Shown: positions 32,216 through 58,662 of the stretch, in pieces | How positions within the stretch are numbered: the first letter of the stretch is position 1 | Layout of the letters: every line of letters starts with the position of its first letter | IMG/VR virus record: IMGVR_UViG_3300044535_000805 | Location: 1-60,080 of that record | DNA length: 60,080 nucleotides | Direction: 5' to 3' (one strand) | Source: a virus | Position numbers and translations under genes: made by a program | Notes under the pieces: generated by a model | Database searches by the model: none | Seen by the model: the letters and a program-made list of their open reading frames with translations, nothing else | What the model was told of the DNA's origin: nothing

Positions 32216-32216
32216 G

Positions 32217-32849: not shown

Positions 32850-32854
32850 GAAGA

Positions 32855-32860
32855 TATTTA
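32855..32860 (-). promoter_or_regulatory. Late box TAAATA, 5 bases before ATG
   Basis: Minus strand CGTAAATA-TCTTC-ATG. Lies near the 5' side of the overlap with the upstream methyltransferase 3' end; no Shine-Dalgarno. Confidence 0.5.
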
Positions 32861-32865
32861 CGTTA

Positions 32866-33465: not shown

Positions 33466-33475
33466 AATCTTAGCC

Positions 33476-33483
33476 TATAAATA
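33476..33483 (+). promoter_or_regulatory. Perfect T4 late promoter TATAAATA, 5 bases before ATG
   Basis: TATAAATA-TCTGC-ATG on the plus strand. Exact T4 late consensus, placed so that transcription would begin at or next to the ATG at 33489. It heads the plus-strand glycan run to 37429. Confidence 0.75.
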
Positions 33484-33488
33484 TCTGC

Positions 33489-38873: not shown

Positions 38874-38880
38874 ATATAAC

Positions 38881-38886
38881 TATTTA
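38881..38886 (-). promoter_or_regulatory. Late box TTAAATA, 7 bases before ATG
   Basis: Minus strand ATTAAATA-GTTATAT-ATG in the 18-base divergent gap between 38873 and 38892; predicts a leaderless late mRNA for the FkbM gene. Confidence 0.5.
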
Positions 38887-38891
38887 ATCAA

Positions 38892-41794
<2,903 letters not shown>

Positions 41795-41801
41795 ATTTTC
41801 C

Positions 41802-42254
41802 TTAAACTTGAATATCTTCCATACCTGCTGTGCGCAAACGAACTACATGTCCCATTTGCCACTGCTTGGAATCCAGGCCTTTCATGATGCCCAACCATCG
41901 GTTACGCAACAAGGCCACTTCGTTGATGATAGTTTCAAAGTCAATCACTTCGTCTTCACCATCAACATATTTTTCAGCATCCCTACTGGTCAGCGCACGA
42001 GCATAGGCTTCCAGATACTTTTGAAAATGCTTGCGTCGAATCTTGCGCAGTTGGATGTTGAGATAGTTTAACACAGCTTCAATTTCTTGCAGTTGGTTAA
42101 ATCTATGTTCAGTAATGCCCGGCAAGGTTGTGATGTTTTTCTCTACCAGGCCCCCAATACGACAATCCTTCTTGGCAGACTCAAGCTCGTGTTCATAGTG
42201 AGCAATAAAGTCTGGTATTGCATCAAGGCCGGCAGTTATACGACTATACCACAT
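41802..42254 (-). CDS. uvsY: Recombination mediator UvsY
   Basis: Loads the UvsX recombinase on gp32-coated ssDNA. 150 aa; GITEHRFNQLQEIEAVLNYL, RKIRRKHFQKYLEAYARAL, SRDAEKYVDGEDEVIDF and LRNRWLGIMKGLDSKQWQ strongly match the UvsY of T4-like cyanophages. It overlaps the radical SAM gene upstream by 11 bases and precedes metK. Confidence 0.92.
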   Translation of the reverse strand: MWYSRITAGLDAIPDFIAHYEHELESAKKDCRIGGLVEKNITTLPGITEHRFNQLQEIEAVLNYLNIQLRKIRRKHFQKYLEAYARALTSRDAEKYVDGEDEVIDFETIINEVALLRNRWLGIMKGLDSKQWQMGHVVRLRTAGMEDIQV

Positions 42255-43491
42255 ATTTTTTATACTTTACTAACCAAGGGAATAGCACAGTCCAGTCGGT
42301 GCCACGGCGACGATCTTTTTCTTCTAAAAATACAAAAAGATCACGGATATCTGTTGGGCTGTGAGTTGGCTGGCATATTTGTTGAAATATGCCTTTCATG
42401 TATTCATACGCTAGAGAATCCTCATCTGTGTCTGTGGGCAATAGACTTAAAATAGTATCCATATCTTTTTCAAATTCATCTCCGGGCAATATACCTGACT
42501 TTAAATAATTTGGTCCCGGTTCTACTCCTGAAAACCAATGTCCTATTTTACGCTCTTTGCGCCATTCTATTAATTTTGTTAAAAGTTCTGGCATAGTCTT
42601 AATTGTTAATACTGAAATAGTTTGATTGATCATAAGATATAACCATTTATACTGCATCAGATAACGAAAATTTTCCTCCCATCTTTTAAGATCGATTCCG
42701 TATCTCACATATTCTTGTTGAGGTCCCCAACAATCAATACTGACACTAATGTCAATTCTGGCAATCTTTCGATCTACTAATAGTTTACGAAATTTAGGTA
42801 TAAATGATGCCAATCGTTCTGGAGATACCATAAGATTGGTTACGATATTTAATTGGCAGTCAGGATTGGGATATTTGTCAACCATTTCTAAGAAATAATC
42901 AAATTCCTGTTGTATCAATGGTTCGCCACCTAAAATTCCCAATCGTTTAAGTTTAGGAAATCCATCAGGAAACCATTCCCAAAATAAAGGAACATAGTCT
43001 TTGTATTTGTTTTTAATAATAGGAAGGTGTACTCCTCCTTGTTTGAATTCTTTAAATTTGTTGTTTTCTGCTGTGTTGGTACTACTAAGACCATTGGGAC
43101 AATATAAACATCCCATGTTACAAGCACTACTAAAATATACTTCTAGTAGAGTAGGGCTAACGTTAACGGCCTGAAGATTATGTTCTAATTCTGGCGGTGA
43201 CATATCAGGTATGCTTAAATGGCGCATGCGATCGCTTGTGCCCCCTACTTCTTCAATTTTACGACAATAAGCACAACTATCTTCTGGCCATAGTCCCTGC
43301 AACATTTGTTGCCGATCCTGTATTTTTAATGGAGTATTATGAAATTGCATAAAGTCTTCTGGAGCAACTGTGCCAATGGCTGTTCGATGACAGCTTCCTG
43401 TTACACCATTATTAAGATATAATGTACTCCATGCCCATTTAAGTTGGCAAGCGGTATTTGTTTTTATTGGAAAATATTTTTTGTCAGGCAT
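42244..43491 (-). CDS. Radical SAM protein with N-terminal four-Cys module (family member A)
   Basis: 415 aa. The catalytic cluster is CNMGCLYC (Cys124, Cys128, Cys131), followed by ILGGEPLIQQEFDYF (the GGEP SAM-binding motif), NIVTNLM and IDISVSIDCWG strands of the partial barrel. The N-terminus carries a SPASM/twitch-like set Cys15, Cys34, Cys73, Cys76 (last pair CAYC) that should bind an auxiliary Fe-S cluster. EYVRYGIDLKRWEENF is the family-specific segment. Probable role: oxidation or modification of a sugar or peptide (family inference). It overlaps both neighbours. Confidence 0.88.
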   Translation of the reverse strand: MPDKKYFPIKTNTACQLKWAWSTLYLNNGVTGSCHRTAIGTVAPEDFMQFHNTPLKIQDRQQMLQGLWPEDSCAYCRKIEEVGGTSDRMRHLSIPDMSPPELEHNLQAVNVSPTLLEVYFSSACNMGCLYCPNGLSSTNTAENNKFKEFKQGGVHLPIIKNKYKDYVPLFWEWFPDGFPKLKRLGILGGEPLIQQEFDYFLEMVDKYPNPDCQLNIVTNLMVSPERLASFIPKFRKLLVDRKIARIDISVSIDCWGPQQEYVRYGIDLKRWEENFRYLMQYKWLYLMINQTISVLTIKTMPELLTKLIEWRKERKIGHWFSGVEPGPNYLKSGILPGDEFEKDMDTILSLLPTDTDEDSLAYEYMKGIFQQICQPTHSPTDIRDLFVFLEEKDRRRGTDWTVLFPWLVKYKKYVV

Positions 43492-44650
43492 TTTGTATCC
43501 AGTTTACAAAACTAGCAGGATAGATACTGAAATCTAAATTGCGGCGCCGGGCAAACTCCTTTAGGTATACAGATAATGTCTGCTGTTGTTGCGCTGTAAC
43601 TGGTGCCATCATGGTTTGTATAATGGTGTCACGAAATTCTATTTCACTGTTGTTTAATAGTTCAGACAAGGCGTGTTTACTATCAGCATCTAATACGTTG
43701 ACATTTAGAAATTCTGGTTCACTACAAAATTCATACTTGATATGTTTTCCTTTGAATTGTTCTACAAATTCAAAGAAACCAAATATTGTTAAATTGCTTA
43801 GTACGCAAGAAAAATACCATTCAAATCCCTGCTGTTCAATTTGTTTTAAATTTATTTCAAAATTTTCCCACGTGTTGCCGAATCGATTAAATTCGTAGAA
43901 TGCCCCACAGTTTTCTGCACTAACAATTAAGGTTATACGATTTCTATTTTTTAATTTTGTTAGTTGTTTTTCAAACCGGATTGGATCTACTCCCAGGCCT
44001 GTATAAATCTTGACTTGATTATGCTCGCTAATTTTGTTTACCAATTCTACTAAATTATTGTAAAGAAATGTTTCGCCGCCAGTGATATAAACACAATCGG
44101 TGGTGCGTAATCGTTCTATCTCATCAGTAAGTGTAATGTATCCTGTGCTTGCTTGATGTTCGGGCTGACTAATTTTTAATAGAAGTTTGTCTATTGGCGA
44201 AATAATAAATCTATCGTGCTCTAAATAAGACCCATGTTCGTTGATATCGCGCAACCATGCTGTACTATAATTTTTACAGCAATACGAGCAAGTCATATTA
44301 CAAGTTGACCCTAACATGATGTGTAAATTTTTTGGAGCATCAACTTGAACAGAATCAAACCGTTCTTTTTGTGTAGGGAATATCATTCTGCGACTAACAG
44401 TTCCAATATTCTCTGGTCTCCAGCAAACATCTTCACAGCTGGACACAGGCTGATTATCCAGCATCTGTTGCCGTTCGTTTTGCAAAGAAGGGGTATTAAA
44501 TAACTGCCCTGGATTTTGTTTGATCCAGTTTATATTGACTTGTTCAGGACGGGCGGCACAACATGAAAACGTCTGCCGCTTCTCTAGATCAACCGAAAGC
44601 CAGGTGAATTTTTCACTGCAATAAAAATCACCAGGCGGTAGTTGATCCAT
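43484..44650 (-). CDS. Radical SAM protein with N-terminal four-Cys module (family member B)
   Basis: 388 aa from the ATG at 44650, which shares one base with the previous stop (TGATG); a TTG one codon earlier is ignored. The catalytic cluster is CNMTCSYC (Cys117, Cys121, Cys124) and the SAM loop is VYITGGETFLYNN, with GGET in place of GGEP. N-terminal cysteines are Cys11, Cys30/31, Cys72 and Cys76, the last pair spaced C-x3-C rather than C-x2-C. It is the most divergent member. ENCGAFYEFNRFGNTWENFEINL holds the position of the family YVRYG segment. Confidence 0.85.
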   Translation of the reverse strand: MDQLPPGDFYCSEKFTWLSVDLEKRQTFSCCAARPEQVNINWIKQNPGQLFNTPSLQNERQQMLDNQPVSSCEDVCWRPENIGTVSRRMIFPTQKERFDSVQVDAPKNLHIMLGSTCNMTCSYCCKNYSTAWLRDINEHGSYLEHDRFIISPIDKLLLKISQPEHQASTGYITLTDEIERLRTTDCVYITGGETFLYNNLVELVNKISEHNQVKIYTGLGVDPIRFEKQLTKLKNRNRITLIVSAENCGAFYEFNRFGNTWENFEINLKQIEQQGFEWYFSCVLSNLTIFGFFEFVEQFKGKHIKYEFCSEPEFLNVNVLDADSKHALSELLNNSEIEFRDTIIQTMMAPVTAQQQQTLSVYLKEFARRRNLDFSIYPASFVNWIQNA

Positions 44651-44910
44651 CAATTTTCCCAGTCTTCTTCGTTGTAGTCTTCTTCTTCAGACTCTTCTTC
44701 ATCTTCTGCGTAGTCTTTGTCGTTGTCAAGATATGATGTAAGTGCTCGTTTGATATCTACATCGCCTTTGAAAGCGTTACGGATATCTTCAACGTCTGAA
44801 TCATTGTCCATTAGAATCTGAACCACAGTTTCTGCCGCTTCGTTGCGATCAACTGTGTTTACATACCTCTTGAGTTCTCCCCAAATTTCTGCGGCTACAT
44901 GTTCACTCAT
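44650..44910 (-). CDS. Small acidic phage protein downstream of uvsX, 86 aa
   Basis: EHVAAEIWGELKRYVNTVDRN is familiar from a conserved small gene next to uvsX in T4-like cyanophages; function unknown. The C-terminal 20 residues are almost all Glu, Asp and Tyr, a DNA-mimic-like acidic tail also typical of gp32 and UvsX partners. It overlaps uvsX by 4 bases and radical SAM gene B by one. Confidence 0.8.
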   Translation of the reverse strand: MSEHVAAEIWGELKRYVNTVDRNEAAETVVQILMDNDSDVEDIRNAFKGDVDIKRALTSYLDNDKDYAEDEEESEEEDYNEEDWEN

Positions 44911-45962
44911 TCTGCTTCCTCCTCGCCGGTACTTACCTCTTCCTTGATATTTCCAAAGTCTTTCATCACAGTATCAAGACAGTTGTCATCGTTGCGTTCC
45001 CATCCTTTGCGGAACTTCTTGATGATTTCACCTTGGCTTGTGGTAAACACCAGGCTGTTGCCTTCTTTCTTGAGTAGGCCTTTTTTCTCAATCAAGTCAG
45101 TTAATCCTGAGTAAGGACTCATGCCTGTTGTGTAGGGAATCTTGACTTGCACGCCTTCAAAAGGTTTGGCATAGCGTGTTTTCATTACTTTACAGCCGGC
45201 ACGGATACCCATGACATCAGTGATCTTGTTGCCGTCCTCGTCCTCTTTCAGTTTCATCTTCTTCATGGCTACCACAATTGAGCTGGCATAGATAAAGCCC
45301 TGACCGCCGGAGATCTTGTCATCGGGATCAAACATGTCTTGGCTTGCGTATGTGTGATTGGTACATACCAATCCAACATTGTAACTACCAAACATGTTCA
45401 CACAGTTACGCACAAGTGCTGTGAGTGCTTTGGGCTTACGACCTAGATCACCCTTCATTTCGCCTGCATCAAACTGGTTCACATCAGTGGGTGTCAACAA
45501 CATGCCTAGACTGTCAATCACAAACATGACCTTGGGACGCTCGCCATCTGGCAAGGCCTTGTAGTCACTCATGAATGTTGAGATAGTTTTGGCCACATCG
45601 TCAATCATGGCCATACTCAGCTTGAGCAATTTGCTGTCACTTGTGTCAACGCCAAGTGCTTTGAGCCAGTCTTCATCCAGTGCATTTTCACTGTCAATCA
45701 ACACCACAAAGATACCTTGCTCTTGTGCGTTCTTCACAATGTTGCCTGAGCAGATATAACTTTTACCTGCACCAGAGTCGCCGGCAAACACAGTGACCTT
45801 GCCCAAGGGAATGCCTCGATTGAAGTCTCCTGAGATCAGGTAGTTCAGTGCATAGTTGCCTGTTGAGATCCAGTCTGTGGGATCGTTAAAGCCGATCGAC
45901 AAGCCGTCAATGCTCTTGGTAATTTCCTTGCGGAACTTGCTTACATCAAATGGTTTTCCCAT
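44907..45962 (-). CDS. uvsX: Recombinase UvsX (RecA family)
   Basis: Strand-exchange protein for recombination-dependent replication. 351 aa with Walker A GDSGAGKS (61-68), Walker B VMFVIDSLGMLL, the L2-like GQGFIYASSIVV region and a QFDAGEMKGDLGRKPKAL loop, as in T4-like UvsX. The Glu-rich C-terminal tail (EEVSTGEEEAE) would contact partners. AAGGAA precedes the ATG. The gene lies between radical SAM members C and B. Confidence 0.96.
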   Translation of the reverse strand: MGKPFDVSKFRKEITKSIDGLSIGFNDPTDWISTGNYALNYLISGDFNRGIPLGKVTVFAGDSGAGKSYICSGNIVKNAQEQGIFVVLIDSENALDEDWLKALGVDTSDSKLLKLSMAMIDDVAKTISTFMSDYKALPDGERPKVMFVIDSLGMLLTPTDVNQFDAGEMKGDLGRKPKALTALVRNCVNMFGSYNVGLVCTNHTYASQDMFDPDDKISGGQGFIYASSIVVAMKKMKLKEDEDGNKITDVMGIRAGCKVMKTRYAKPFEGVQVKIPYTTGMSPYSGLTDLIEKKGLLKKEGNSLVFTTSQGEIIKKFRKGWERNDDNCLDTVMKDFGNIKEEVSTGEEEAE

Positions 45963-45964
45963 GA

Positions 45965-47125
45965 TTAATTTCCTTCTTTAAATTTATATAACTCTTTAAA
46001 AATTTTACTACTGTCAATTTTTCTTCTAATATCAATATTTTTCAGGTTTTCAAATGTTGCGTTGAGATCTTTTTCAACTGGTGTAGATATGTAGTTTAAC
46101 ATTAAACTCAGAGAATTGTAAAGACAATAGGCAGGGTTTGATAGATTTAGTTTGCTCTGAATTTTATTTCTCAATAGTGTTAGCTCAGAATCTGGCAAAT
46201 TTCCCACATGCCAAACTTTGGGATTATCCAACGGGTTTACAATAAACGAATTTTCGTGAAACCCTAAATTTTGCAAAAATTCTATGCAATCTAATACTCC
46301 ATATGCGGTCATAATGCACCATGTGGAGTTGAAATTTATTTTTTCAAAGTCTTGTCTAAGTTGTTGTAAATTGTTAATGAACTGATCCCAGACTCCACCA
46401 TAACGCACATATTCAAATTCTTTGCCGACACCGTCAACACTCACTGTCCAATGTACATTTTTAAACTGTTTGAGCAAGTTATAAATCTCGTTGTTAATTA
46501 TACTTAGATTGGTGTTGATTCGTATTTCTACATTGGGATTAATCTCACGTATTTTTTTTAACAACACTATATTTTCTTTGATCAACAATGGCTCTCCACC
46601 TGCTAGATATATGTGCTCTACTGTGTTTAGATTACTGTAAATGTAATCCAAAGATTGTTGTAATGCATCTTCTTTTATATGTTGTGGTAAATTTAATTCG
46701 CTAGCCCAAGCACTACTTAGATCTGGTCCGCAATAGATACACGCAAAATTGCAAGTGTTTTTCCAACGAAGATCTAACATGTTCAATCTGTAATTACTTG
46801 TATTGTCAAAAAATTCTAAGTCATTATTTTTTAACGTTTTTAGATACCACACTCTGTTGCTAACCGAATTAGGACTAAATTTTTGATTTTTTTCTAATAG
46901 ATGACAGTGACTGCATCTATTGTGCAGGACGTCGTTTAACATGTCTTGTTTGATGAGTTGATTGTTTTCTCCGTGCAAAATATTCTTTAACGGCTGTGAG
47001 TTTATGTTTCCCAAAGTTTCGTTAGTAATAGCACAATTTCTTACATCACCGTCGGGCTGTATGTACACTCCTAACCAAGGCAAGGTACAAAAACTTTTTT
47101 TAGTTAGATATTCTTTTGGGGTCAT
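45965..47125 (-). CDS. Radical SAM protein with N-terminal four-Cys module (family member C)
   Basis: 386 aa. N-terminal auxiliary module: Cys13 in FCTLPWLGVYIQPDGDV, Cys31, Cys71 and Cys74 (CSHC). Catalytic cluster CNFACIYC (Cys125, Cys129, Cys132) with YLAGGEPLLI as SAM-binding loop, NTNLSIIN and WTVSVDGVGKEFEYVRYGG. This is the most typical member and aligns readily with E and F. It is 1-2 bases from uvsX on one side and SDR1 on the other, so it is translated in the gp32-uvsX operon. Confidence 0.9.
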   Translation of the reverse strand: MTPKEYLTKKSFCTLPWLGVYIQPDGDVRNCAITNETLGNINSQPLKNILHGENNQLIKQDMLNDVLHNRCSHCHLLEKNQKFSPNSVSNRVWYLKTLKNNDLEFFDNTSNYRLNMLDLRWKNTCNFACIYCGPDLSSAWASELNLPQHIKEDALQQSLDYIYSNLNTVEHIYLAGGEPLLIKENIVLLKKIREINPNVEIRINTNLSIINNEIYNLLKQFKNVHWTVSVDGVGKEFEYVRYGGVWDQFINNLQQLRQDFEKINFNSTWCIMTAYGVLDCIEFLQNLGFHENSFIVNPLDNPKVWHVGNLPDSELTLLRNKIQSKLNLSNPAYCLYNSLSLMLNYISTPVEKDLNATFENLKNIDIRRKIDSSKIFKELYKFKEGN

Positions 47126-47126
47126 G

Positions 47127-47672
47127 TTAAAAAGTTATTTCTTTAAGATTGAATCCGAGGTTGTTAGTTTCTGACATTATTAACAAGAATGTTTTTACCC
47201 AGTTAGTCAGTTTTGTTTGTTCCTCAACTGTGATTGTATCACTATAAAGATGCACAGGGTTGATCAAAACAATCCTGGGCCAAACAGATTTAAATGACAA
47301 CTGGGCACTGGCCTCATTCAATGAAACTTTGGCTGTACGGTATGCATCCATGCCAGGATCATCAAACAGATTTCTTGGCAAGACTGGAGTATAGGTAATT
47401 GCACTGCTAATATTTATTATGGTTTTTTGTTGGTTTTTCCAACGTTTCCATAGTTCATATAGTACGGTTGTTTGAACAAAATCTGGTTTTGCAACATTGA
47501 TAAACATGTCACACTCAGTAGTTTGATCAAGCATTTTTTGCATGTGATCCCAATTTCTTAGATCGTAGCCGTTGGAGCGACTGAACCCGCTGACTTGATG
47601 TCCTGATTCTTCATACGTTTTTTTAAACTCGGCGCCAAGGCCTCGAGTATGACCAGTGATAGCAATTTTCAT
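47127..47672 (-). CDS. Short-chain dehydrogenase/reductase (SDR 1)
   Basis: 181 aa NAD(P)-dependent oxidoreductase. Cofactor loop GHTRGLG (7-13), FINVAKP in place of NNAG, catalytic Ser in NISSAITY and Tyr111-x3-Lys115 (YRTAK). It is shorter than classical SDRs (about 250 aa), like SDR2 beside it; the substrate loop and C-terminal part are trimmed. It overlaps SDR2 by 4 bases. Linked with radical SAM members C and D, it could reduce a keto group made by them, giving epimerisation (inference). Confidence 0.88.
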   Translation of the reverse strand: MKIAITGHTRGLGAEFKKTYEESGHQVSGFSRSNGYDLRNWDHMQKMLDQTTECDMFINVAKPDFVQTTVLYELWKRWKNQQKTIINISSAITYTPVLPRNLFDDPGMDAYRTAKVSLNEASAQLSFKSVWPRIVLINPVHLYSDTITVEEQTKLTNWVKTFLLIMSETNNLGFNLKEITF

Positions 47673-48211
47673 AATTTTGGACCCAATGATATATCTGAGA
47701 TAGTTAAATTATTGGTCTGTGCTATTTCTAACATAGATACCAACGCTCCGGCCCAGACATTTACATCTGCGGCAGGTGGCACTGTTTTGTCAGCACTGGT
47801 TGCAATGTTGCCCGGTCGAACTAGAGTAATTTTTATACCTGAGCGACTATTTCGTATTTGACTTACCGCTTGTTCTAGTGTGGTTTTTTGTATTCTGTAA
47901 GCCATCATATCCAGTCCAGGCAATACACTCACCGGATCTTGTGTCATCATGGTGCTGATGACCATGATGTGTTTACCACTACCTTTCCAACGCTGAACCA
48001 TCTCAAACAACAATTCGGTCTGCGCATAGCCTGCTTGTGCGTTGTTTATAAACATATCACAGGGTTCTATTGCGTCGGCTATTTTTGGTATCACTCGTAT
48101 GTTATGGCCTGTGCGGCGGCTTAGACTTAGTATCTCGTGACCACGTGCTTGGTATTCGTTACCCAGTGCCTGACCTATTCCAGCTGTGCCGCCTGTAATT
48201 GCTATTTTCAT
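47669..48211 (-). CDS. Short-chain dehydrogenase/reductase (SDR 2)
   Basis: 180 aa from the ATG at 48211 (overlapping the stop of radical SAM member D as ATGA; a frame to 48226 is not used). Cofactor loop GGTAGIG (7-13), FINNAQAG, VISTMMT at the Ser position, and Tyr105-x3-Lys109 (YRIQK). SDR1 is a clear tandem paralog: both share MKIAITG, CDMFIN, the LYELWKRWK/LFEMVQRWK helix and size. Confidence 0.88.
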   Translation of the reverse strand: MKIAITGGTAGIGQALGNEYQARGHEILSLSRRTGHNIRVIPKIADAIEPCDMFINNAQAGYAQTELLFEMVQRWKGSGKHIMVISTMMTQDPVSVLPGLDMMAYRIQKTTLEQAVSQIRNSRSGIKITLVRPGNIATSADKTVPPAADVNVWAGALVSMLEIAQTNNLTISDISLGPKL

Positions 48212-49173
48212 TGATAGTAATCCCAAAGTTTAATACCACGCAACTGATCTTGTGCATGTGTCCATGACTGTAGTTCAATTGTGTTGTCTCGATCCTGGCC
48301 CACTATGGATTTTAATTCATCTGGTACATCAGCAGTTCTTGTAAAATGATTATTGTACTTGACGTTTAGTACCTCTGGCTGTTCCAGCAATGCCCAGGAG
48401 TGATCAAGACCTTGCTGTTTTGTATATGCAAAAATATTCTTCAAGTTGCTGATATTTAACGAACTGACTGTGGTCCAGGTGTTTAGTTCTTGGATTCCCA
48501 TGTTTCTGTATATGTCAAGATTTCGTTCAAAGTTTTCCCACTTGATAGGCCAACGCACATAATCATGAACACGTCCGATACCATCCAGGCTCACTGTGAC
48601 TGTGACGTGTACGCCACGCTTGACCAGTTGCTGTATTTCTGGAATGACCATAGAACAGTTGGTGTTGATTCTAACGCTGACCACTGATGGAGGAATATTT
48701 TTAAGTATGTTGCGATAGTTTTTACTGGCACTGGGTTCACCACCATTAATATCCAAATGAACCACACGCTCTAATGGCAATTGCCAAAATGCCGCTGAGT
48801 TATCTACTATGGGATAGTTACTAGATATTAAACTGCCTATCTTGGTGCTTAGATTTTGATTGCAAGATTGGCAAGCACTATTACAAATGTTGTCTAGTAC
48901 CCCGCCAACAGTAAGATAGTCCAGGCGTGTTTGTTTTTTATCAAATTTGATAGCATTGAGTCTTATGCTGGTGTTGTTGATTTGTTCTGTTTGTTGACAC
49001 CGCACACATTCCTTGGGCCATGTATCTGGATTGCTTTTGATATCACTTAACCAATCACTAGCGTTCATTTTCTCTATGGTATCAAACTCAGGTGGATTGA
49101 CCATATGACCGCATCGACTCATGGTACCATTGGGATTAAATCTCACAAAGTGATCAAGTCTCGGGCAATACAT
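48208..49173 (-). CDS. Radical SAM protein with N-terminal four-Cys module (family member D)
   Basis: 321 aa, the shortest member. Module cysteines Cys3, Cys21, Cys56, Cys59 (CVRC); catalytic cluster CNSACQSC (Cys97, Cys101, Cys104); SAM loop DINGGEPSASKNY; RINTNCSM; TVSLDGIGRVHDYVRWP. The usual aromatic residue before the third Cys is replaced by Ser. It overlaps SDR2 and the sulfotransferase-like gene (20 bases). Confidence 0.87.
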   Translation of the reverse strand: MYCPRLDHFVRFNPNGTMSRCGHMVNPPEFDTIEKMNASDWLSDIKSNPDTWPKECVRCQQTEQINNTSIRLNAIKFDKKQTRLDYLTVGGVLDNICNSACQSCNQNLSTKIGSLISSNYPIVDNSAAFWQLPLERVVHLDINGGEPSASKNYRNILKNIPPSVVSVRINTNCSMVIPEIQQLVKRGVHVTVTVSLDGIGRVHDYVRWPIKWENFERNLDIYRNMGIQELNTWTTVSSLNISNLKNIFAYTKQQGLDHSWALLEQPEVLNVKYNNHFTRTADVPDELKSIVGQDRDNTIELQSWTHAQDQLRGIKLWDYYQ

Positions 49174-49780
49174 GTTCGATGATATTTTTATAATTTTTTT
49201 GATAGTAATCCAAGAGTTCGCTCCAGGTAAATTCTTGACCAGCCAACTCTAAAAGTATTTGATCTAAATACAGCCACAACTCAATACCGTGATTTTCTTT
49301 AAACAATTCAGCAACAAAGTCTTTACTGGGCGGAATAACGTATGCTCTAGATTCAAAATCAGTTATTGCGCCAAAGTCTTTGAAGTTCCTAAAGCGTATT
49401 TTTGTATCGTTACGTAGATAACGAGAAAGATTTGCCAACCAGTGAAACTGGGGCAAGTAGTGTGTGTTTAAAAATTTATATCGCTTGGCAAACCAAAATG
49501 CTGTAGAAGAATCTAACTCAGGATAGTCGCGTTGAAGATGTTGCAGGTATGTGTTAATTCCACTGACATATCTGTCTCGGGGGTTGCGTATGTAGACATC
49601 CACATAGTCCAGCGCCAAAATCTCATGATTACTAAACACCACGAGATTCTCTTTTTTTTGCTGATATCGCAAACTGGTGTTTCCGTTTTTTTGAATTAGA
49701 TAAACCCATTGATTGTGAAGTGGTAGAGATACCACTTCACATAGATTTGGAAACAATTCTGTATCCAAAGACGTTTTCAT
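49154..49780 (-). CDS. Sulfotransferase-like protein, 208 aa
   Basis: Carries the two PAPS-binding signatures of the sulfotransferase fold: LIQKNGNTSLRY (5'-phosphosulfate loop with Lys31, residues 29-39) and VYIRNPRDRYVSGINTYL (3'-phosphate motif, Arg65 and Ser73). The rest is helical and aromatic. It would sulfate a sugar hydroxyl, fitting the glycan genes. It is the first gene after gp32, sharing one base with it (49780). Confidence 0.8.
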   Translation of the reverse strand: MKTSLDTELFPNLCEVVSLPLHNQWVYLIQKNGNTSLRYQQKKENLVVFSNHEILALDYVDVYIRNPRDRYVSGINTYLQHLQRDYPELDSSTAFWFAKRYKFLNTHYLPQFHWLANLSRYLRNDTKIRFRNFKDFGAITDFESRAYVIPPSKDFVAELFKENHGIELWLYLDQILLELAGQEFTWSELLDYYQKNYKNIIEHVLPET

Positions 49781-50769
49781 TACTGCTTTTGACGTGCTCG
49801 GATCATGGCCAAGATATCTTGGGCGTTGCCACCGGCCACCGGCTTGGCTACTGGAGCAGTAGCAGTTGCTGGCTCGTCCTCATCCCAGGCAGGTGTTTCT
49901 GCCGCCGGAGCAGGTGCGGCTTTTGCTACTGGAGCAGGTTTAGCTGGTGTATCCTCGTCGCTTGCGGCTGCACCAGCAGGTGCTTGTACACCAGCAGGAC
50001 GGAAGTACTGACCCCAACGCTCAGTGTCGTATGGCTGTCCATCTACACTTGCTTCAAACATCTCTTTGATGACTCGGAGCTCAACGTCAGTTGGCTTCTT
50101 GGGCAAGAATGTGCTCAAGTCAAACAATCCATGCTTTTCAATCGCAGCCTGTTCAGCCTCTGTCAGTGCTGACTCTTTACGTGCCCACTTGGATCCGTTA
50201 TAGTCAGCAAAACCGCCTTTGCTTCCTTTGGTGATACGGAAGTCCAGGCCACGCAAGTAGTCTGTTGGCAATTCTTCCAGTTCAGGATCCATCAAGGCGC
50301 CCTTGATAGTTGTAAAGATTTGTGGACCAATGATGAATCGACGAATTGGATTCTCTGGAGTTTTGTCGTCACCCAGTGCGTTTTCGCGCACAAAGCCTTG
50401 GAAGATGTAACTGCGTTTCTTCCAGTACTTACGACCCATGTCTTCAAGAGTCTTGTCCTTGAACCATGTGCGTACTTCTGCCAGGATTGGGCAGGCTTCC
50501 TGCCACATTTCCACGCAAGGTACTTGTACCATGACTTGTTTGGATTCCATCTCTCCTTTGACACCGTTGAAGGGCAAACGAATCATTGCTCGTTCTTGCC
50601 AAAAGAAAGTGTTTTTAGAGTTACCGTCTGGGAGGAAGCGTAGTGTAGCAGAGCTGCCTTCTTCCATATTCCAATGCGGATAAATTGAGTTGTCGCCACG
50701 TTCAGTGGATTGACCACCTTTTGATTCTGCTGCCTGCAGTCGTGCGCGGATTTCTGCTAATGATGCCAT
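49780..50769 (-). CDS. 32: Single-stranded DNA-binding protein gp32
   Basis: Coats ssDNA at forks and recombination intermediates and recruits UvsY. 329 aa; the N-terminal basic helix (SLAEIRARLQAAESKGGQS) for cooperativity, an OB-fold core (HWNMEEGSSATLRFLPDG, FWQERAMIRLPFNG, CVEMWQEACPILAEVRTWF, SYIFQGFVRENA) and a long Ala/Pro/Asp/Glu C-terminal tail ending DILAMIRARQ are as in aquatic T4-like gp32. It has a 180-base leader with hairpins, an arrangement expected for translational autoregulation. Confidence 0.94.
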   Translation of the reverse strand: MASLAEIRARLQAAESKGGQSTERGDNSIYPHWNMEEGSSATLRFLPDGNSKNTFFWQERAMIRLPFNGVKGEMESKQVMVQVPCVEMWQEACPILAEVRTWFKDKTLEDMGRKYWKKRSYIFQGFVRENALGDDKTPENPIRRFIIGPQIFTTIKGALMDPELEELPTDYLRGLDFRITKGSKGGFADYNGSKWARKESALTEAEQAAIEKHGLFDLSTFLPKKPTDVELRVIKEMFEASVDGQPYDTERWGQYFRPAGVQAPAGAAASDEDTPAKPAPVAKAAPAPAAETPAWDEDEPATATAPVAKPVAGGNAQDILAMIRARQKQ

Positions 50770-50953
50770 ATTGTGTTGCCTTTCTATGCGTTAATATGAT
50801 TTTAAAATTTAAGACTTGCTTAAATGCTGCCTACAAGGTTATTTTAACACAGCCTGTCTGTGTTTCCTACCTTTACGGTAGAGAATTTTGCCTAACTTGT
50901 TGTTTACGGAAGTGTGCGCTACTACACACACTTCTTTTATGCGTTTATTTATG
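50770..50953 (-). promoter_or_regulatory. Structured leader of the gp32 gene
   Basis: A 184-base gene-free stretch. On the minus strand it holds a late-like box CATAAATA (50953-50946), a 10-bp hairpin with one mismatch (909-934, GAAGTGTG arm), a CTACC/GGTAG stem (867-881) and an AACACAG/CTGTGTT stem with a 5-base loop (846-864), then an A/T-rich unstructured run before GAAAGG and the ATG. T4 gene 32 is regulated through a folded leader and an unstructured operator, which this resembles. No T-run follows the hairpins. Confidence 0.55.
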
Positions 50954-53035
50954 TTATTTTATCAAAGCCAATGATTTTATTCTTGCCAAAAGTGCAGTGC
51001 CGTCTTTTGACTCATAGTAGCTGTCGGTCACAGCGCCACGAGAGTCCATGGGATCTTGCTCGCCCATGATATCTTCAGCCATGCCCATTCCACATTCCAT
51101 TAAGCCATGTTCAGGGCAGTATTGGCCTTCAGCAGTCATGTTGCATGAGCCTTCTGTAACTGGTGGTGTTTGTTTGAGCTTTTGTGCTTTTTTGTACTCT
51201 GCGTCTGGATCTTTGAATCCTTCATCACCTAGTTTATGACCAGCGTATGCGCCAGCGGCTGCTCCGGCCAATGTGCCCAGTGCTGGTACTACACTACCAA
51301 GTGCTCCACCTGCTAGGCCACCTGCAATCGCACCTTTCCATCCTTCTTCTAAGCCGCGGTCTTGTGCAAAACGGTCTGCAACATATTCGTAAGGATCGCC
51401 ATCGCGAGCTTTCTTTGTACCATATGGCATGTCATCAAAGTAGTAATCATACAATGCATGATACAGATCGTCACTCATATCGCCAGATTTTTCAAAATCG
51501 CGCACTTCTTTGCCAAAGCGATTGCAAATGTGGTCCAAGGTGCTTCCCGCTGAGTCTGTCAGCACACTCTCTTTGACCGGTACGCCGGCGTATTTCAAAA
51601 TTGAATTTAGCTCATCACTCTCTGCTATACCATCAAGGCCTTTAACACCCTTCATGATTTCTGGATCTGCGTCAATAGCATTGCTTAGATCAGTTGCCGC
51701 ACCAGCCAGAGTGTCATCACCTTCAGTCACGGGAGGAACTGGGGGTTCTGCGCCAGGTGTGGCCGCAGGCTCAGTGTTTACTGGCTCCATTCCAGCGTCA
51801 GGTTCAGGTGTACTAGGAGTTTGTATGCCTAGCTCTTTGAGTCGTTGCATGACTTCTGTATCATTCCAGGCATTGGCTCGTGGATCACGTGCCGCAAGAT
51901 CACCTAGACGATCAAACAAAATATCATCGCCAACCAAGTCGTACAGTTGTTCTGTGGCATTGGTTGCGTCAGGTCCCACAACTAACTCTTTGCTCATTAG
52001 AGTTTTGAGTTTATCTAGTTGTTCGGGAGTTTCTGGTAAACTCCAAGTGCCTTCGGCTAGATTGTTGATCCAGCTTTCAAAAATATCTGCTTCTTTCATT
52101 TCTTGTCCTCGTTGCTGTATTTTTGCCAATAGTGGCAAGGCAGCCTCAATACGGCTGTCAATGGTTTGCTCAATGAACAAGGTTTTGATTTGATCAACCA
52201 TTCCGTCTTGTTCAGCAATTGTGGCCGGATGCCACGATTCAAAATAATCTGTGTACCCACGACTGGTGCCCATGTGTTTGAGATTCTCTCTCAAGCTGTG
52301 GTAATACGCTTGTGCTTCAGTGATGAGTTCTTGTGTTGCGCCTTCAAGTATGTGGCTACCACTGGCACGATTGAAACGACTCAGTACTGCAATTTCATTC
52401 ACAGTTTCAGTGATGTGGTTGCCACGAATGTCATAGGGTTTGCCGCCTTGACGTACATGTTCCAGCATGGCACGGCCAGCCATCAAACTCTTGAATCCCA
52501 ATCTAAAACGCTCGCCGTCGGCTGTTTCAATAAACAGTTTTTCAACATAGCGATGCCGGGCATCACCTTCGCCCAAGGCACGGTTGTGAACTATTTGCAA
52601 TCTTGCTTCTGTGGGTTGACCACTATAGCTGACTTTGCGTGTGCCATAGTAGCCTTCAAACAGGCCTTCTTTGATTGCGGCCAAGCCTTGCATGGTAAAC
52701 TTGAGTTGACTAATATCTTGTATGGTCTTGGTCCAGCGATTACGCATGGCCACTTGTCCCAGATGGCCAATAAAGTCAAAGAACTCGTTCTTGTCATTGC
52801 CCTCCATGGTCTTGCCCAGGTTATCCCCGTACATGATCTTGCAATCGTTGTCTACATCAAGCACAATGACCATGGTGCCATAGTTTTTGCCTGTGCCACT
52901 TACATAGTCAAACGTGAAGGTTTTAGCGTTTTCAGCGTTAGTGGGCTTGCCCATTTTGTCCAGCATTTCGGGTTGAAAGTCCCGAGTTGCCAGGAAGTCA
53001 AGCAATTGTTGCGATATTGTATTTTCTGTAGCCAT
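50954..53035 (-). CDS. Large virion/internal protein, 693 aa
   Basis: Unnamed, but matches in style a large conserved protein of aquatic T4-like phages. N-terminal half: mixed alpha/beta (KTFTFDYVSGTGKNYGTMVI, FFDFIGHLGQVAMRNRW), then EADIFESWINNLAEGTWSLP. A Pro/Glu-rich linker spans about 405-450. The C-terminal part holds HALYDYYFDDMPYGT, a glycine-zipper (AIAGGLAGGALGSVVPALG, then LAGAAAGAYAGHKLG) that could insert in membranes, and a Cys pair (YCPEHGLMEC). Possibly an ejected protein. A late box ends 7 bases before the ATG. Confidence 0.78.
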   Translation of the reverse strand: MATENTISQQLLDFLATRDFQPEMLDKMGKPTNAENAKTFTFDYVSGTGKNYGTMVIVLDVDNDCKIMYGDNLGKTMEGNDKNEFFDFIGHLGQVAMRNRWTKTIQDISQLKFTMQGLAAIKEGLFEGYYGTRKVSYSGQPTEARLQIVHNRALGEGDARHRYVEKLFIETADGERFRLGFKSLMAGRAMLEHVRQGGKPYDIRGNHITETVNEIAVLSRFNRASGSHILEGATQELITEAQAYYHSLRENLKHMGTSRGYTDYFESWHPATIAEQDGMVDQIKTLFIEQTIDSRIEAALPLLAKIQQRGQEMKEADIFESWINNLAEGTWSLPETPEQLDKLKTLMSKELVVGPDATNATEQLYDLVGDDILFDRLGDLAARDPRANAWNDTEVMQRLKELGIQTPSTPEPDAGMEPVNTEPAATPGAEPPVPPVTEGDDTLAGAATDLSNAIDADPEIMKGVKGLDGIAESDELNSILKYAGVPVKESVLTDSAGSTLDHICNRFGKEVRDFEKSGDMSDDLYHALYDYYFDDMPYGTKKARDGDPYEYVADRFAQDRGLEEGWKGAIAGGLAGGALGSVVPALGTLAGAAAGAYAGHKLGDEGFKDPDAEYKKAQKLKQTPPVTEGSCNMTAEGQYCPEHGLMECGMGMAEDIMGEQDPMDSRGAVTDSYYESKDGTALLARIKSLALIK

Positions 53036-53042
53036 GGTCGTG

Positions 53043-53048
53043 TATTTA
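53043..53048 (-). promoter_or_regulatory. Late box CTAAATA, 7 bases before ATG
   Basis: Minus strand CTAAATA-CACGACC-ATG (53035), overlapping the terminase stop codon; no Shine-Dalgarno. Confidence 0.55.
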
Positions 53049-54635
53049 GCGCATTACTGAAATGAAGGGCATGGGCTCAACCACGTTGTCTGAGTGGTCT
53101 TTAAGGTGTGCGTCCAGGTCTGAGTGAAATGTTTGCAACATCATCAGCATGCGTGTGGCCAACAGACTGGCCATCACAAGATCATCTGTTTCCCCAATCT
53201 TTGCTTGATAACTAGCCCCGTTGGCCACAAAGGTTTTGAGCTCACTTACCAGGGGTTTGGAGTATATCTTCATGCGCCCAGATTCTACCAGGATCTTGAA
53301 CTTGTTGCAGGCCACAATTTTACTTTTGTTTGTGGTTGTAAATCCTTTGCGGATTCTACGTCCTGAACTACCTTGTACTGAGTTGTCACTTAAGAAATAA
53401 CCTGGAATGTTTTCTTCACCGTATTCTGCTATGGATATCAGGGCCGCTTCTCCCAGCGTGTTGTTTTCCACACTGTAGTAGATGCTCTTGTTGTCTTTGA
53501 CCACAGTGTGCAGTTCTTTGATGATGTCGGCCATGATTTTAATCTGCGTTGGGACGTCAGTTTTGTTGTGCCGCCACTCTGCAATTTGTTCAGTGGTATC
53601 TGCTTCAAATACTTGTATAGCTGACGGATCTCCACCAGTACCCAAACTGGGGTCTAGTGCCACAATGTAGATGTGGTCTTTTTTGGGTTTGCGGTACCAG
53701 CGTACTTGACCAGTTTTTTCTACAGGTTCCACACCCTCAAGCTCTAGTAGTTTGATAGGCGATATCAGTGTTTCGTCATTGATCACAAAGTCGCAGTCCA
53801 TCTCTCGACGGAAACGTTCGTCCCCAAGTTGACTACGTTGTTCTTCTGCCCACTTGTCATCTCTATCTGGATGTTCACGCCAGAATGCTCTAAATGCTTT
53901 GAATCCGTTTATGCCCAGGCCATTGGGTCTTGGATTGCCAAACTCATCTTCAACTTTGTTGGCACCTTTCCAGATGTAAGCAAATTGATCCTCATCCGAG
54001 TTGGGGGTGCTTGTGATAATTGCCTTACCACCTGTTGACAGTGTGGGCGTAATAGAAGTCCAAAACTCTTTGGCAATTGTGGGTCGTACAAACGCAAACT
54101 CGTCTAGATACAGTAGCGTAATACTCATACCACGACCGGTATTTTCAGTAGTTGTTTGACTAACAATACGTGATCCATTGTCAAACTCTAGAGAACCTTT
54201 GTTGTAGCTGGTAGCACCTGCTCTAATATGATTGGGGCATAGTTCGTAAGCATACCGAATACGTTGCATGATCTCTTGTGCGCCCAGATATTTGTGTGCG
54301 GCAATAAGAATAGTTGCGTCAGGTACAAACATTGCATACCACAACAAGTAACCAGCGGCACTAGTTGACTTGCCTGTTTGGCGTGGCATTAGTGAGATAC
54401 TAAAACGATTTTGATGATAATTATTGATCAAACGTTTTTGATATTCAAACGGATGATACAACATCTTGCCCCGAACAGGATGCTGAATATAAAAGAAGTT
54501 GTCCATGAAATACATGGCACCGTCAACCGGATCTGCACAACGAGCAAAATCTTCTAGTTCTTGCTCGGTAAATGTTTCTCGTCGATGCGGTGCCTTGACC
54601 AGTACTGTGTCAAGTGTGTTTTTTGCGCCAATCAT
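53046..54635 (-). CDS. 17: Terminase large subunit gp17
   Basis: Packaging motor and headful nuclease. 529 aa; ATPase Walker A MPRQTGKST (83-91), Walker B LLYLDEF (174-180), coupling motif STPNSDED; RNase H-like nuclease with Asp328 (YIVALDPSLGTGGD), Glu in YYSVENNTLGE and Asp in TDDLVMASLLA. This is the gp17 arrangement. It overlaps the SGNH gene upstream by 26 bases. Confidence 0.96.
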   Translation of the reverse strand: MIGAKNTLDTVLVKAPHRRETFTEQELEDFARCADPVDGAMYFMDNFFYIQHPVRGKMLYHPFEYQKRLINNYHQNRFSISLMPRQTGKSTSAAGYLLWYAMFVPDATILIAAHKYLGAQEIMQRIRYAYELCPNHIRAGATSYNKGSLEFDNGSRIVSQTTTENTGRGMSITLLYLDEFAFVRPTIAKEFWTSITPTLSTGGKAIITSTPNSDEDQFAYIWKGANKVEDEFGNPRPNGLGINGFKAFRAFWREHPDRDDKWAEEQRSQLGDERFRREMDCDFVINDETLISPIKLLELEGVEPVEKTGQVRWYRKPKKDHIYIVALDPSLGTGGDPSAIQVFEADTTEQIAEWRHNKTDVPTQIKIMADIIKELHTVVKDNKSIYYSVENNTLGEAALISIAEYGEENIPGYFLSDNSVQGSSGRRIRKGFTTTNKSKIVACNKFKILVESGRMKIYSKPLVSELKTFVANGASYQAKIGETDDLVMASLLATRMLMMLQTFHSDLDAHLKDHSDNVVEPMPFISVMR

Positions 54636-55356
54636 CCATTACTCTTTCTGCAAATATTTTGTGTCCTTCAGGACCAGCATGCATGTAGTCACGGGCATAG
54701 CCAATCTCTTCTCTACTGCGAGCAAAATAATCATGTGCATTGTATGTTTGGCATTTGATGTCAAGCTCTGCACACAGTCCTTGCACTGCCAACTTGTTCT
54801 TTGCATTATTTAAGTCGGCATTGCGATCATTTATCAACCACTGCTGTATGGCTCGGTCTGTGATATCAGTCTGGCCAGGCATATACGTGTTGTGCGGCCA
54901 CTGAGAATCTTCAGTGATTAGATCAAACCTATGTTTGGGTGGGGCACACATTACAACTAACCTGGGCAACAGCCGGGGAACCCAATATTTTGCCAACATA
55001 AAACAAGTGTCAGCACTGGCACCTCCCCACGAAAGATTATACACTGTGAGCTCTAACTCTTGTCCTACTAGTGTGGGCCATATGCTTTCTAAAGGTAATC
55101 CCATGCCAACACTGTAACTGCATCCTAAAGTAACTATGCTGGCCGCACTGGGATCAAACTCTTCAGCTCTAAAACCATTTGAATTGATTTTGTATGTTAT
55201 TGCTCGGGGCCTGTCCCATCCATGCCGGCGGAAATGCTCTTGGTGTTTTGGGTCTTGTAATAATTTCTGATAGTTTTCTTCGGTGTCAGTTGACAACCAC
55301 TCAGTAGTCTGCCCCGCATACTTCATGCCAAAGTGCCAAGGTGCGTTATTTGACAT
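54610..55356 (-). CDS. SGNH/GDSL-like hydrolase family protein (paralog 6)
   Basis: The fullest SGNH of the six, 248 aa. An extra N-terminal segment of about 70 residues (HFGMKYAGQTTEWL, YKINSNGFRAEEF) precedes block I IVTLGCSYSVGMGLPLESIWP; block II is YNLSWGGASADTCF, and block V RDYMHAGPEGHKIFAERV has Asp and His in the right spacing. The N-terminal segment resembles that of bacterial secreted or cytosolic SGNH acetyl-esterases. It overlaps radical SAM member E by 11 bases. Confidence 0.78.
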   Translation of the reverse strand: MSNNAPWHFGMKYAGQTTEWLSTDTEENYQKLLQDPKHQEHFRRHGWDRPRAITYKINSNGFRAEEFDPSAASIVTLGCSYSVGMGLPLESIWPTLVGQELELTVYNLSWGGASADTCFMLAKYWVPRLLPRLVVMCAPPKHRFDLITEDSQWPHNTYMPGQTDITDRAIQQWLINDRNADLNNAKNKLAVQGLCAELDIKCQTYNAHDYFARSREEIGYARDYMHAGPEGHKIFAERVMDDWRKKHT

Positions 55357-56503
55357 CCGGTACCTCTTTTAATGCCACTGCCATGTCCGGCCATAAGTCT
55401 TCAAAGCGAGTTACTTTCTTTAGTTTTTGCTCAATGTCTCTGTGCCAATCAGTTACATACAAATCTCTATCCATTGGGGGCAAGTAACTGTTATCGTTCA
55501 AGGTTAACTTGTATCTTTCCAAGATATCAAGCGATATGTTTTGTTGTCCTTGATACTTGGTTAGAACAAGATCAATTTCATCTATAGCTTGTTGTCGAAC
55601 ATCCATGGGCATGCGTCTAATGTCCAGCTCTTGCGGATGGTTTAACTCGCACCAAAAAATATCCAAGCTCATAGACTGACAAAAATCATAGTACTCTGTC
55701 AAGTCCCAAGCACAATAAATGCTGTAAGCAGGATGTGCTGTGACTCGTTGGTTGTCACGCTTCATTGTTTGAATGTTCTTAACAAATTGATTCCAGTCAG
55801 CACCATTGCGCACATACTCAAATTTTTGTTGATTGGCGTTGTCAAAGCTGATCATCCAGCTGACTCGGGGCCATGTCTTTAGTTCTTGATAGATGGGATT
55901 GTTTTCAAGTTCCACGCTGAGGTTGGTTGTGACCAGTACATTGACTTTGTTGGAATCAAGGTGTTTTAAAAACTCCCCAAGTCCTTTTTGTAACAAGGGT
56001 TCGCCACCGCCCAAAGTCAGCCCTTGTAAACTGTGTCCGTTGGTCTTGGCCAGTTCAATTAAGTCTTGATGTTCGTTGCGATCATGGTTGATAGGGATTT
56101 TCAGAGCACTTTGCCAAGCTGTGCTGGTTTCAGGATTGCAATAGGTGCAACTGAGATTGCAGAGATTGCTCCAGTTTACCACTAGGTGTTCTAGATCAAA
56201 CCAGGATATATCATCATTGATTGCATCTATAGTCTTTTGATCTGCATGGCGCTGAGTGCGTCCACTGTGCCCAGTTGTATCTTCAAGACGTTTACACCAT
56301 GAGCAAGCATCGTGCCATTTGCCGTCAGCCATGTGTTGTTTTATGTCTTTGAGTTCGGGTCCGTGTATTACTTCTTGAATGGTGTTTTTCTTGATATTGC
56401 CCACAGATGACAAACAATGCATGCAAGGAGTAACACGACCATTTTGGTCAATGTTGAGGCTGGTCCAGGGTGCAGGACAAAATGTAGGGCCGTTAGATAT
56501 CAT
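55346..56503 (-). CDS. Radical SAM protein with N-terminal four-Cys module (family member E)
   Basis: 385 aa. Module: Cys9 in FCPAPWTSLNIDQNGRV, Cys27 (and Cys30), Cys67, Cys70 (CSWC). Catalytic CNLSCTYC (Cys115, Cys119, Cys122) followed by NPETSTAW, SAM loop LTLGGGEPLLQ, VTTNLSVE, WMISFDNANQQKFEYVRNG. Closest to member F, with which it brackets the 2OG oxygenase gene; both gene borders overlap. Oxidative tailoring of a shared substrate is inferred from this tight cluster. Confidence 0.9.
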   Translation of the reverse strand: MISNGPTFCPAPWTSLNIDQNGRVTPCMHCLSSVGNIKKNTIQEVIHGPELKDIKQHMADGKWHDACSWCKRLEDTTGHSGRTQRHADQKTIDAINDDISWFDLEHLVVNWSNLCNLSCTYCNPETSTAWQSALKIPINHDRNEHQDLIELAKTNGHSLQGLTLGGGEPLLQKGLGEFLKHLDSNKVNVLVTTNLSVELENNPIYQELKTWPRVSWMISFDNANQQKFEYVRNGADWNQFVKNIQTMKRDNQRVTAHPAYSIYCAWDLTEYYDFCQSMSLDIFWCELNHPQELDIRRMPMDVRQQAIDEIDLVLTKYQGQQNISLDILERYKLTLNDNSYLPPMDRDLYVTDWHRDIEQKLKKVTRFEDLWPDMAVALKEVPDVK

Positions 56504-57057
56504 AGTGTTTTGACCCAGCTGTAGCTGGTGAGTCTAAATGTGTTTTTTGGCACAGGATTTAACATAGCATGCCACAGCAGGTTTCTGTAGCCGTCCGTGT
56601 TGGGTCTGTTGACCATGATGTAACCTGTGTTGGCTCGCATGGGAAACTGATGACGTTTGCTAGCAGGATCTTGGTACCAGTAAAACGAAGTCCCAAGGTC
56701 TTCGTTGGCTCCAATCCAGGTCAATTGCATACTGCCCGGCATTTCGCCATCAGTGTGCATGGAGCAAGTAAAGCCGGGCTCATCAACCCACCATGCAGTG
56801 CCCATGTAGTCTTCTAATTCAAAGCCCACAGCGTTGCCAATGTCGGTCCATATGCGATGACAAGCCAGTTCCCACTCTATGATCCAAGGCAACACGTTGT
56901 CGTCGATTCTTCTGCGGGCCCAGCTTTCCTGCCCTTCTTGTCTGTGCCAAGGCAAGTCTAACCAAGGTGTGGCTAATATTTTGGCCACCAGTTCTGGGGG
57001 CATTGCATTGTCAACTCGATACAAGTTGGGTTCGTTATCAACAGGTGCTATTTGCAT
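56500..57057 (-). CDS. 2OG-Fe(II) oxygenase
   Basis: 185-aa double-stranded beta-helix dioxygenase. Iron ligands His101 and Asp103 (SMHTDGE) and His163 (LWHAMLNPV), with Arg175 (FRLTSYSW) to hold 2-oxoglutarate. Such proteins hydroxylate peptides, nucleic acids or small molecules and are frequent in T4-like phages. Here the gene overlaps a radical SAM gene at each end (4 and 10 bases), so co-translation with both is likely and a joint pathway is plausible. Confidence 0.87.
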   Translation of the reverse strand: MQIAPVDNEPNLYRVDNAMPPELVAKILATPWLDLPWHRQEGQESWARRRIDDNVLPWIIEWELACHRIWTDIGNAVGFELEDYMGTAWWVDEPGFTCSMHTDGEMPGSMQLTWIGANEDLGTSFYWYQDPASKRHQFPMRANTGYIMVNRPNTDGYRNLLWHAMLNPVPKNTFRLTSYSWVKTL

Positions 57058-58199
57058 AGGAACTCCAGTTCAGGCCAAAGTCGCACAAACTCACCTGCTT
57101 TGTCAGGATGGTATTTGTGTTCAATATCATAGATGTGTTTCCAAAACGCAATATCAACATCAGATACTTTGACAATGTCCAGGCGCTCATTGTATGTTTT
57201 GAGTGCTTGATCAAAAAATACTTGTTCAGACTCTGTTACCAAGTTGTTGGCATACAAGTATTGTATTTCATCTGCGGCAAGTTTTGCAACACTGGCACCG
57301 TGAGTAAATGGATCCAAGTACTTGGGCTGGAACAAGTTTTGCCACAAGATGGTTGTGTCTGTTTCCTGGGCAAATTGTTTTAGTTCACGCAGGCGTGTGG
57401 CATTGTAAATATTGTACACAGCATGTATGCCGCCCCAGTGCCCGTTGTTTTTCATCAAGTTTTTGACCACGGCTAGGTTATTCTGCAACATTGACCAAGA
57501 ACCGCCATAACGAACATATTCAAAACGTTCACCTACATTGTCAAAGCTCATGCTCCAGCCGACTCGTTTGCGCTGTGCTAGTTTCCGGAAGATTTTGTTT
57601 TTTTCTAAGTCAACATTCATGTTGGTGATTAGCGTAACAATAGCTGATTCTGGTATGACATCCAGTAATCGTTCATTTTCTGGCAGTAGTAGTGGCTCGC
57701 CACCTACCAAGGCCACTTCATGTATGTGACCATGGTGTTGTTCGATGAAGTCACACACCTGTTCATAGTACGGACGAGAGCCTGACCGGAATGGTACCTG
57801 CTTTAATGCGGCCCACTTTGAGCTGGCACCAGGATCACAATAGTTACAACTCAAATTGCAAGTTGTATTCCAACGCACATCCACAATCACAGGATAGTGA
57901 TACTGGTCCCCGGCTGTGGCATAATCAAAATTGGGGTTTACATTGTTGTGCCATTGGCGTTCTGAGTCTGCACCAAAACGTTCTGCCTGCACACAGTTTG
58001 AGCAGTATTCGTGTGCTTGACCTTGTGCAAGACTAGTTCGCACTTCAGCCATTGTGCTGTTGTTTAAAACTTCCGTGATTGTGTTTGTGTTGAGGTTACC
58101 CAGCATGTTGGGGTTGCCGGCACAACAGGTTTTAACATCGCCACGGGGGTTTATGTGTAGGCCACGCCAGGGTGCGGCGCAGTAGAAATTATCGCTCAT
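57048..58199 (-). CDS. Radical SAM protein with N-terminal four-Cys module (family member F)
   Basis: 383 aa. Module: Cys7 in YCAAPWRGLHINPRGDV, Cys25/26, Cys66, Cys69 (CSNC). Catalytic CNLSCNYC (Cys114, Cys118, Cys121), SAM loop LVGGEPLLLPEN, LITNMNVDL, GWSMSFDNVGERFEYVRYGG. Its N-terminal module is the best preserved of the family (CCxGNxxxLGNLNT). It opens a late-type operon F - oxygenase - E - SGNH - terminase; a TAAATA box lies 4 bases before the ATG. Confidence 0.9.
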   Translation of the reverse strand: MSDNFYCAAPWRGLHINPRGDVKTCCAGNPNMLGNLNTNTITEVLNNSTMAEVRTSLAQGQAHEYCSNCVQAERFGADSERQWHNNVNPNFDYATAGDQYHYPVIVDVRWNTTCNLSCNYCDPGASSKWAALKQVPFRSGSRPYYEQVCDFIEQHHGHIHEVALVGGEPLLLPENERLLDVIPESAIVTLITNMNVDLEKNKIFRKLAQRKRVGWSMSFDNVGERFEYVRYGGSWSMLQNNLAVVKNLMKNNGHWGGIHAVYNIYNATRLRELKQFAQETDTTILWQNLFQPKYLDPFTHGASVAKLAADEIQYLYANNLVTESEQVFFDQALKTYNERLDIVKVSDVDIAFWKHIYDIEHKYHPDKAGEFVRLWPELEFLCK

Positions 58200-58655: not shown

Positions 58656-58662
58656 ATTGATA

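Follow-up and report, generated by a model that had tools for sequence, protein, structure and literature searches.

Why a single phage fragment should carry six radical SAM (rSAM) genes with a cysteine module ahead of the catalytic motif, and what such enzymes might do, is the question raised by this locus. The window, that is the whole stretch of DNA analysed (IMGVR_UViG_3300044535_000805, 60,080 nucleotides), is a 60 kb virus fragment from a large freshwater-type phage, and its terminase large subunit (53046..54635, minus strand) is 51.6% identical to that of PA5oct-group jumbo phages. Since the record is a fragment, six rSAM copies are a minimum.

Features of the six radical SAM genes

All six rSAM ORFs were intact and lay on the minus strand. 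The rSAM A gene (42244..43491) encodes 415 aa, with the twitch-type cysteines starting at residue 15 and the radical SAM motif at C124-x3-C-x2-C, and its ORF overlaps uvsY and rSAM B. The rSAM B gene (43484..44653, 389 aa) is divergent, with C-x3-C, GGET, and EFNRFG. The rSAM C (45965..47125), rSAM E (55346..56503), and rSAM F (57048..58199) genes encode 386, 385, and 383 aa, respectively, while rSAM D (48208..49173, 321 aa) is the most divergent of the six and has a short C-terminus. The motif CX3CX2C, GGE, and an [ED][YF][VN]R segment were present in all six, and a four-cysteine set of spacing C-x17-20-C-x34-40-C-x2/3-C stood upstream of CX3CX2C in each. The six genes described by the sequence-only reading were thus recovered as ORFs at the positions it gave, and the layout of their cysteine sets was reproduced by none of 5000 shuffles per protein for the six proteins. 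The radical SAM domain PF04055 was matched in the six (A and D slightly under its cut-off), and together with the AlphaFold2 (AF2) models of F and D it places CX3CX2C and GGE in a partial barrel, as in the radical SAM superfamily.

Two differences between members had also been pointed out. The C-x3-C of rSAM B was found, and so was a changed residue in rSAM D, whose catalytic motif reads CNSACQSC, but all catalytic cysteines are kept. A catalytic defect in rSAM D was rejected on the ground that only the residue preceding the last cysteine differs and all three cysteines are present.

Across 76 aligned rows, comprising the six and phage homologues, the four N-terminal and the three catalytic cysteines were invariant, the catalytic ones partly by construction, as rows were chosen partly by the catalytic motif. 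The upstream four-cysteine set was present in 181 of the 198 homologues on bacterial or archaeal assembly contigs. As estimated by dN/dS over A, B, C, D, and F, with several dS values saturated, purifying selection is shown to act on rSAM A, C, D, and F (0.04-0.10 where dS could be estimated; 0.05-0.08 for D), and rSAM B gave 0.20, a weaker estimate from one partial orthologue.

Family assignment and the N-terminal module

The HMM search returned NF033640 (N_Twi_rSAM, NCBIfam) as the top family for all six, by a wide margin, which bears out their placement in one family and not in unrelated ones. The alignment with the six is near full-length and holds the same N-terminal twitch cysteine set and CX3CX2C barrel. 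Against its cut-off of 170 bits, A (214.8), C (262), E (218), and F (214) scored above, and B (161.6) and D (122.5) below. The family carries no assigned function, and no paper in the literature searched names the accession.

These low scores, the shortness of D, and the few relatives of B would suit a reading in which only four members are enzymes, B and D having decayed or serving a regulatory role. Such decay is very unlikely, given that all seven key cysteines are retained in both, that dN/dS is 0.05-0.08 for D and 0.20 for B, and that D gave a high-confidence AF2 model (pLDDT 93.4).

The twitch-type cysteine set was found ahead of the barrel in all six. Reviews define SPASM/twitch domains as C-terminal extensions (PMC9012708), and in this literature sense, with the auxiliary-cluster domain C-terminal to the barrel, the six do not qualify, as theirs is N-terminal in every case. 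Pfam SPASM (PF13186) matched the N-terminus of rSAM C (residues 13-75), E (residues 9-71), and F. A profile of the N-terminal module searched against the PDB had a sole match, BtrN (E 3e-4), where it fell on the C-terminal domain of the auxiliary cluster and all four cysteines lined up; the whole profile also matched BtrN (7-78 to 183-258, E 7e-7). The AF2 models of F (pLDDT 93.5) and D showed the order Cys, beta-hairpin, Cys, helix, CxxC (mean pLDDT 93, two models), and it is in these two models that the SPASM/twitch topology was seen. This order is the twitch topology of SkfB and BtrN (PMC6231123), and in BtrN one [4Fe-4S] cluster is fully ligated by four cysteines (PMC9012708, PMC6231123). 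Because of the BtrN profile match and the twitch order in the AF2 models, the module of the six is assigned, from profiles and predicted structures, as a twitch domain moved ahead of the barrel, and it would be expected to bind a cluster. The remark that the module precedes the barrel, unlike known SPASM/twitch enzymes, agrees with the published definition and with the BtrN match.

Distribution and phylogeny

Homologues of rSAM A were found in 84 viral stretches, those of rSAM F at 68 loci, those of rSAM D at 29 loci, and those of rSAM B at 3 loci only. For rSAM E, a peptide-pattern search gave no viral relative, yet orthologues were present in the fetched contigs. A tblastn search of rSAM F against named phages gave no match, and a single-protein scan across cellular genomes found nothing. 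Between 2 and 13 members of the N-twitch family were carried by each of 21 related, larger IMG/VR contigs, the copies being conserved in related phages; these contigs were selected for carrying homologues, and several look closely related, so that they represent fewer than 21 independent phages.

Pairwise identity among the six was only about 20%, and they did not form one clade in a 244-row tree. Cellular-assembly contigs supplied 168 of the rows, and some of these contigs may be viral sequence that was binned with cells. The tree was built by a fast method and has long branches, so that nothing beyond the six not being monophyletic was taken from it. Their identity of about 20% and their mixing among cellular-assembly homologues led to the rejection of a single recent tandem amplification. 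The term paralogous, applied earlier to the six, holds as far as membership of the same family, but by identity and tree position they are judged to be old, separate lineages. One multi-step pathway using the six is possible, and the tree agrees just as well with separate enzymes gained at different times.

Four N-twitch rSAM genes, three of them annotated as radical SAM, lie within 7 kb in Vibrio phage K566 (L204:7956-14698). As in the phages, contigs of Bdellovibrionia, Chitinophagales, and an unclassified bacterium (L249, L279, L253, L232) hold 6-9 N-twitch genes in about 20 kb. Large aquatic phages commonly carry the family, as do Bdellovibrionota-assigned MAG contigs, sometimes in arrays.

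Some phage copies bear ill-fitting names that refer to queuosine or heme. Radical SAM genes of Baltic Sea phages were named ahbD heme synthase (PMC9301287), and this naming, with a weak similarity of the barrels to viperin and MoaA, would agree with auxiliary metabolic genes that alter how the host handles small molecules (heme, cofactors, or nucleotides, the latter perhaps related to defence) and do not make a phage product. We regard such a role as improbable, as the equivalog models for AhbD, MoaA, QueE, and viperin scored far under their cut-offs, and six unlike copies per phage, with arrays in relatives, would be odd for one host step.

Gene surroundings and companion genes

The six rSAM genes are dispersed among the T4 core genes uvsY, uvsX, gp32, and terminase, with gaps near zero, and the rSAM region directly follows a sugar/methylation island and MetK. 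By Pfam, the island (31433..40794, no strand assigned) comprises GT17, two Methyltransf_24, a cytidylyltransferase-cupin, GT8, an FkbM methyltransferase, and a GDP-mannose 4,6-dehydratase. MetK, the S-adenosylmethionine synthetase (40694..41794), matched three Pfam domains (E to 1e-58); it and the genes described below as far as the oxygenase-like gene lie on the minus strand. As listed, the dehydratase ORF (39700-40794) overlaps MetK (40694-41794) by 101 bases; its TTG start is probably too early, because the Pfam match begins at residue 45-46.

A UvsY-like recombination mediator (41802..42254; phrog_231, E 2.6e-14) precedes rSAM A. Between rSAM B and the T4 core gene for a UvsX-like recombinase (44907..45962; phrog_97, E 2.8e-67) lies a conserved 86-aa protein with an acidic tail (44650..44910), which clusters with proteins from 97 loci and had no PHROG match. 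Two short SDR/epimerase-like proteins (47127..48226; 47127-47672 and 47669-48226), both in sequence cluster 9, follow rSAM C, and PF01370/PF00106 was matched on the second only. Beyond rSAM D, a sulfotransferase-like protein (49154..49780) was assigned by motif only (K31-N32, R65/R70/S73 invariant, 20 homologues), with no supporting match in the PDB profile search, and a gp32-like ssDNA-binding protein is encoded at 49780..50769 (phrog_1192, E 7e-67). An SGNH/GDSL-like hydrolase (54610..55356; GCS, D223/H226 invariant) had a weak PDB profile match (E 0.002). A 2OG-Fe(II) oxygenase-like protein (56500..57057), between rSAM E and F, was likewise assigned by motif only (H101-x-D103, H163, and R175 invariant, 20 homologues) and had no PDB profile match; a GT-like neighbour was not placed by PDB profile searches either. 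Past rSAM F, a Staphylococcal-nuclease-like protein (58218-58742) has a signal-peptide-like stretch, MKKLLLLLLIMPVLAVA, in its N-terminus after the listed GTG start. The YadA-head-repeat protein at 58663-59889 shares its start, MANPPPPYDNITGIS, with a cluster relative and differs downstream, which is the pattern of host-specific adhesins.

A second array, made up of several N-twitch enzymes and accompanied by a carbamoyltransferase, is present in several related phages. Among the 21 related contigs, a carbamoyltransferase was present in 11, an A-type Fe-S carrier in 11, a PNP/MTAN-like nucleosidase family in 8, and MetK in 5; as only contigs carrying rSAM genes were counted, with no rSAM-free control phages, these are frequencies and not enrichment. 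Some related phages have an amidinotransferase, nearest to AGAT, HsvA, SxtG, and StrB. The carbamoyltransferase and amidinotransferase belong to the related phages and are absent from this window. Related phage and bacterial loci also add glycosyltransferases, and on cellular-assembly contigs the radical SAM family made up 28 of the 145 neighbours, followed by GT2, Asp/Asn hydroxylase, and GDSL hydrolases. In Paenibacillus, a single N-twitch rSAM (L274:7914-16055) was located amid genes predicted, from reading the sequence, to encode ACP, ketosynthase, and adenylation functions.

Proposed chemistry

Guided by the match of the auxiliary domain and by the partner genes, we tentatively favour the six as rSAM enzymes with a BtrN-type twitch that carry out a BtrN-like oxidation or epimerisation of a saccharide or a secondary-metabolite-like compound. 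Each enzyme would hold a SAM-binding [4Fe-4S] cluster and one auxiliary cluster, ligated by the four cysteines. A 5'-deoxyadenosyl radical would abstract a substrate hydrogen, and the auxiliary cluster would accept an electron, giving dehydrogenation; alternatively, the radical would be quenched, giving epimerisation. Each enzyme may act at its own position or on its own intermediate of a compound made or decorated by the phage, most likely a virion or host glycan, with the neighbouring glycosyltransferases, methyltransferases, and SDR-like, sulfotransferase-like, and 2OG-oxygenase-like proteins as putative partners and the phage MetK providing SAM. The sugar island may adjoin by chance, as genes for DNA replication and packaging lie in between the rSAM genes, and substrate is not predicted by SPASM/twitch similarity networks (PMC6231123).

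It counts against this reading that the top PDB matches of the barrel include the peptide and protein modifiers anSME, SkfB, SuiB, and EpeE. The main rival is accordingly protein or peptide modification, in which each enzyme would modify a residue of a virion protein (tail fibre or head) or of a peptide encoded elsewhere. The matches to anSME, SkfB, and SuiB fit it, as do the Pfam SPASM scores on the module of C, E, and F and the position of F and E near the YadA-head adhesin-like and 2OG-oxygenase-like proteins, and a virion protein, or something encoded beyond the 60 kb fragment, may serve as substrate. We consider it somewhat unlikely all the same: no RRE (peptide-binding) domain was among the family matches of the six, a precursor gene is hard to fit in so tightly packed an operon, where little space is left except one 184-bp gap, and most of the partner genes encode transferases of sugar, carbamoyl, amidino, or methyl groups.

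Beyond BtrN-like chemistry in this window, large T4-related aquatic phages may own a biosynthetic pathway with many N-twitch rSAM enzymes (up to 13), glycosyltransferases, a carbamoyl- and an amidinotransferase, and its own sources of SAM and Fe-S. The product would be a sugar, either aminocyclitol-like or extensively modified, meant for the virion or the surface of the host. This wider proposal is unlikely as it stands. In keeping with the sequence-only reading, no described phage pathway using this set was found.

Comparison with known systems

The six share with BtrN (2-deoxy-scyllo-inosamine dehydrogenase, PDB 4M7S/4M7T), by profile, the twitch domain with its four-cysteine auxiliary cluster, which stands after the barrel in BtrN and before it in the six. 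The likeness to a BtrN-type dehydrogenase covers the auxiliary domain only, whose four cysteines are present in the six, and it provides a concrete, testable guess on the auxiliary cluster. With anSME, SkfB, SuiB, BlsE, and viperin, the six have the radical SAM partial barrel in common (Foldseek E to 1e-6). The best PDB structures match at a TM of about 0.4 only, as expected when the common order extends to the barrel alone, and the PDB structure search found no solved chain with the whole domain order of the six. A full-length phage homologue in BFVD matched at TM 0.95 and 58% identity.

The suggestion that this architecture and multi-copy habit were undescribed did not survive: NF033640 is named for its N-terminal twitch, BFVD holds homologues, and a 2017 paper (PMC5332604) had already described a marine T4-like virus carrying 12 radical SAM genes. 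That environmental virus, TARA_ERS488813_N000010, is likened to the present one by gene number and not by sequence. Radical SAM cassettes have also been reported in pelagimyophages (PMC7029224). Three radical SAM genes are annotated in the T4-like genome of the cultured Vibrio phage KVP40. One of them matches rSAM C in sequence, N-terminus included, and a KVP40 protein matches rSAM F by fold; this phage offers a test system for the auxiliary-cluster idea. The observation of six genes is real and conserved, and the N-twitch architecture and the multi-copy habit are already on record, the six being members of a known family.
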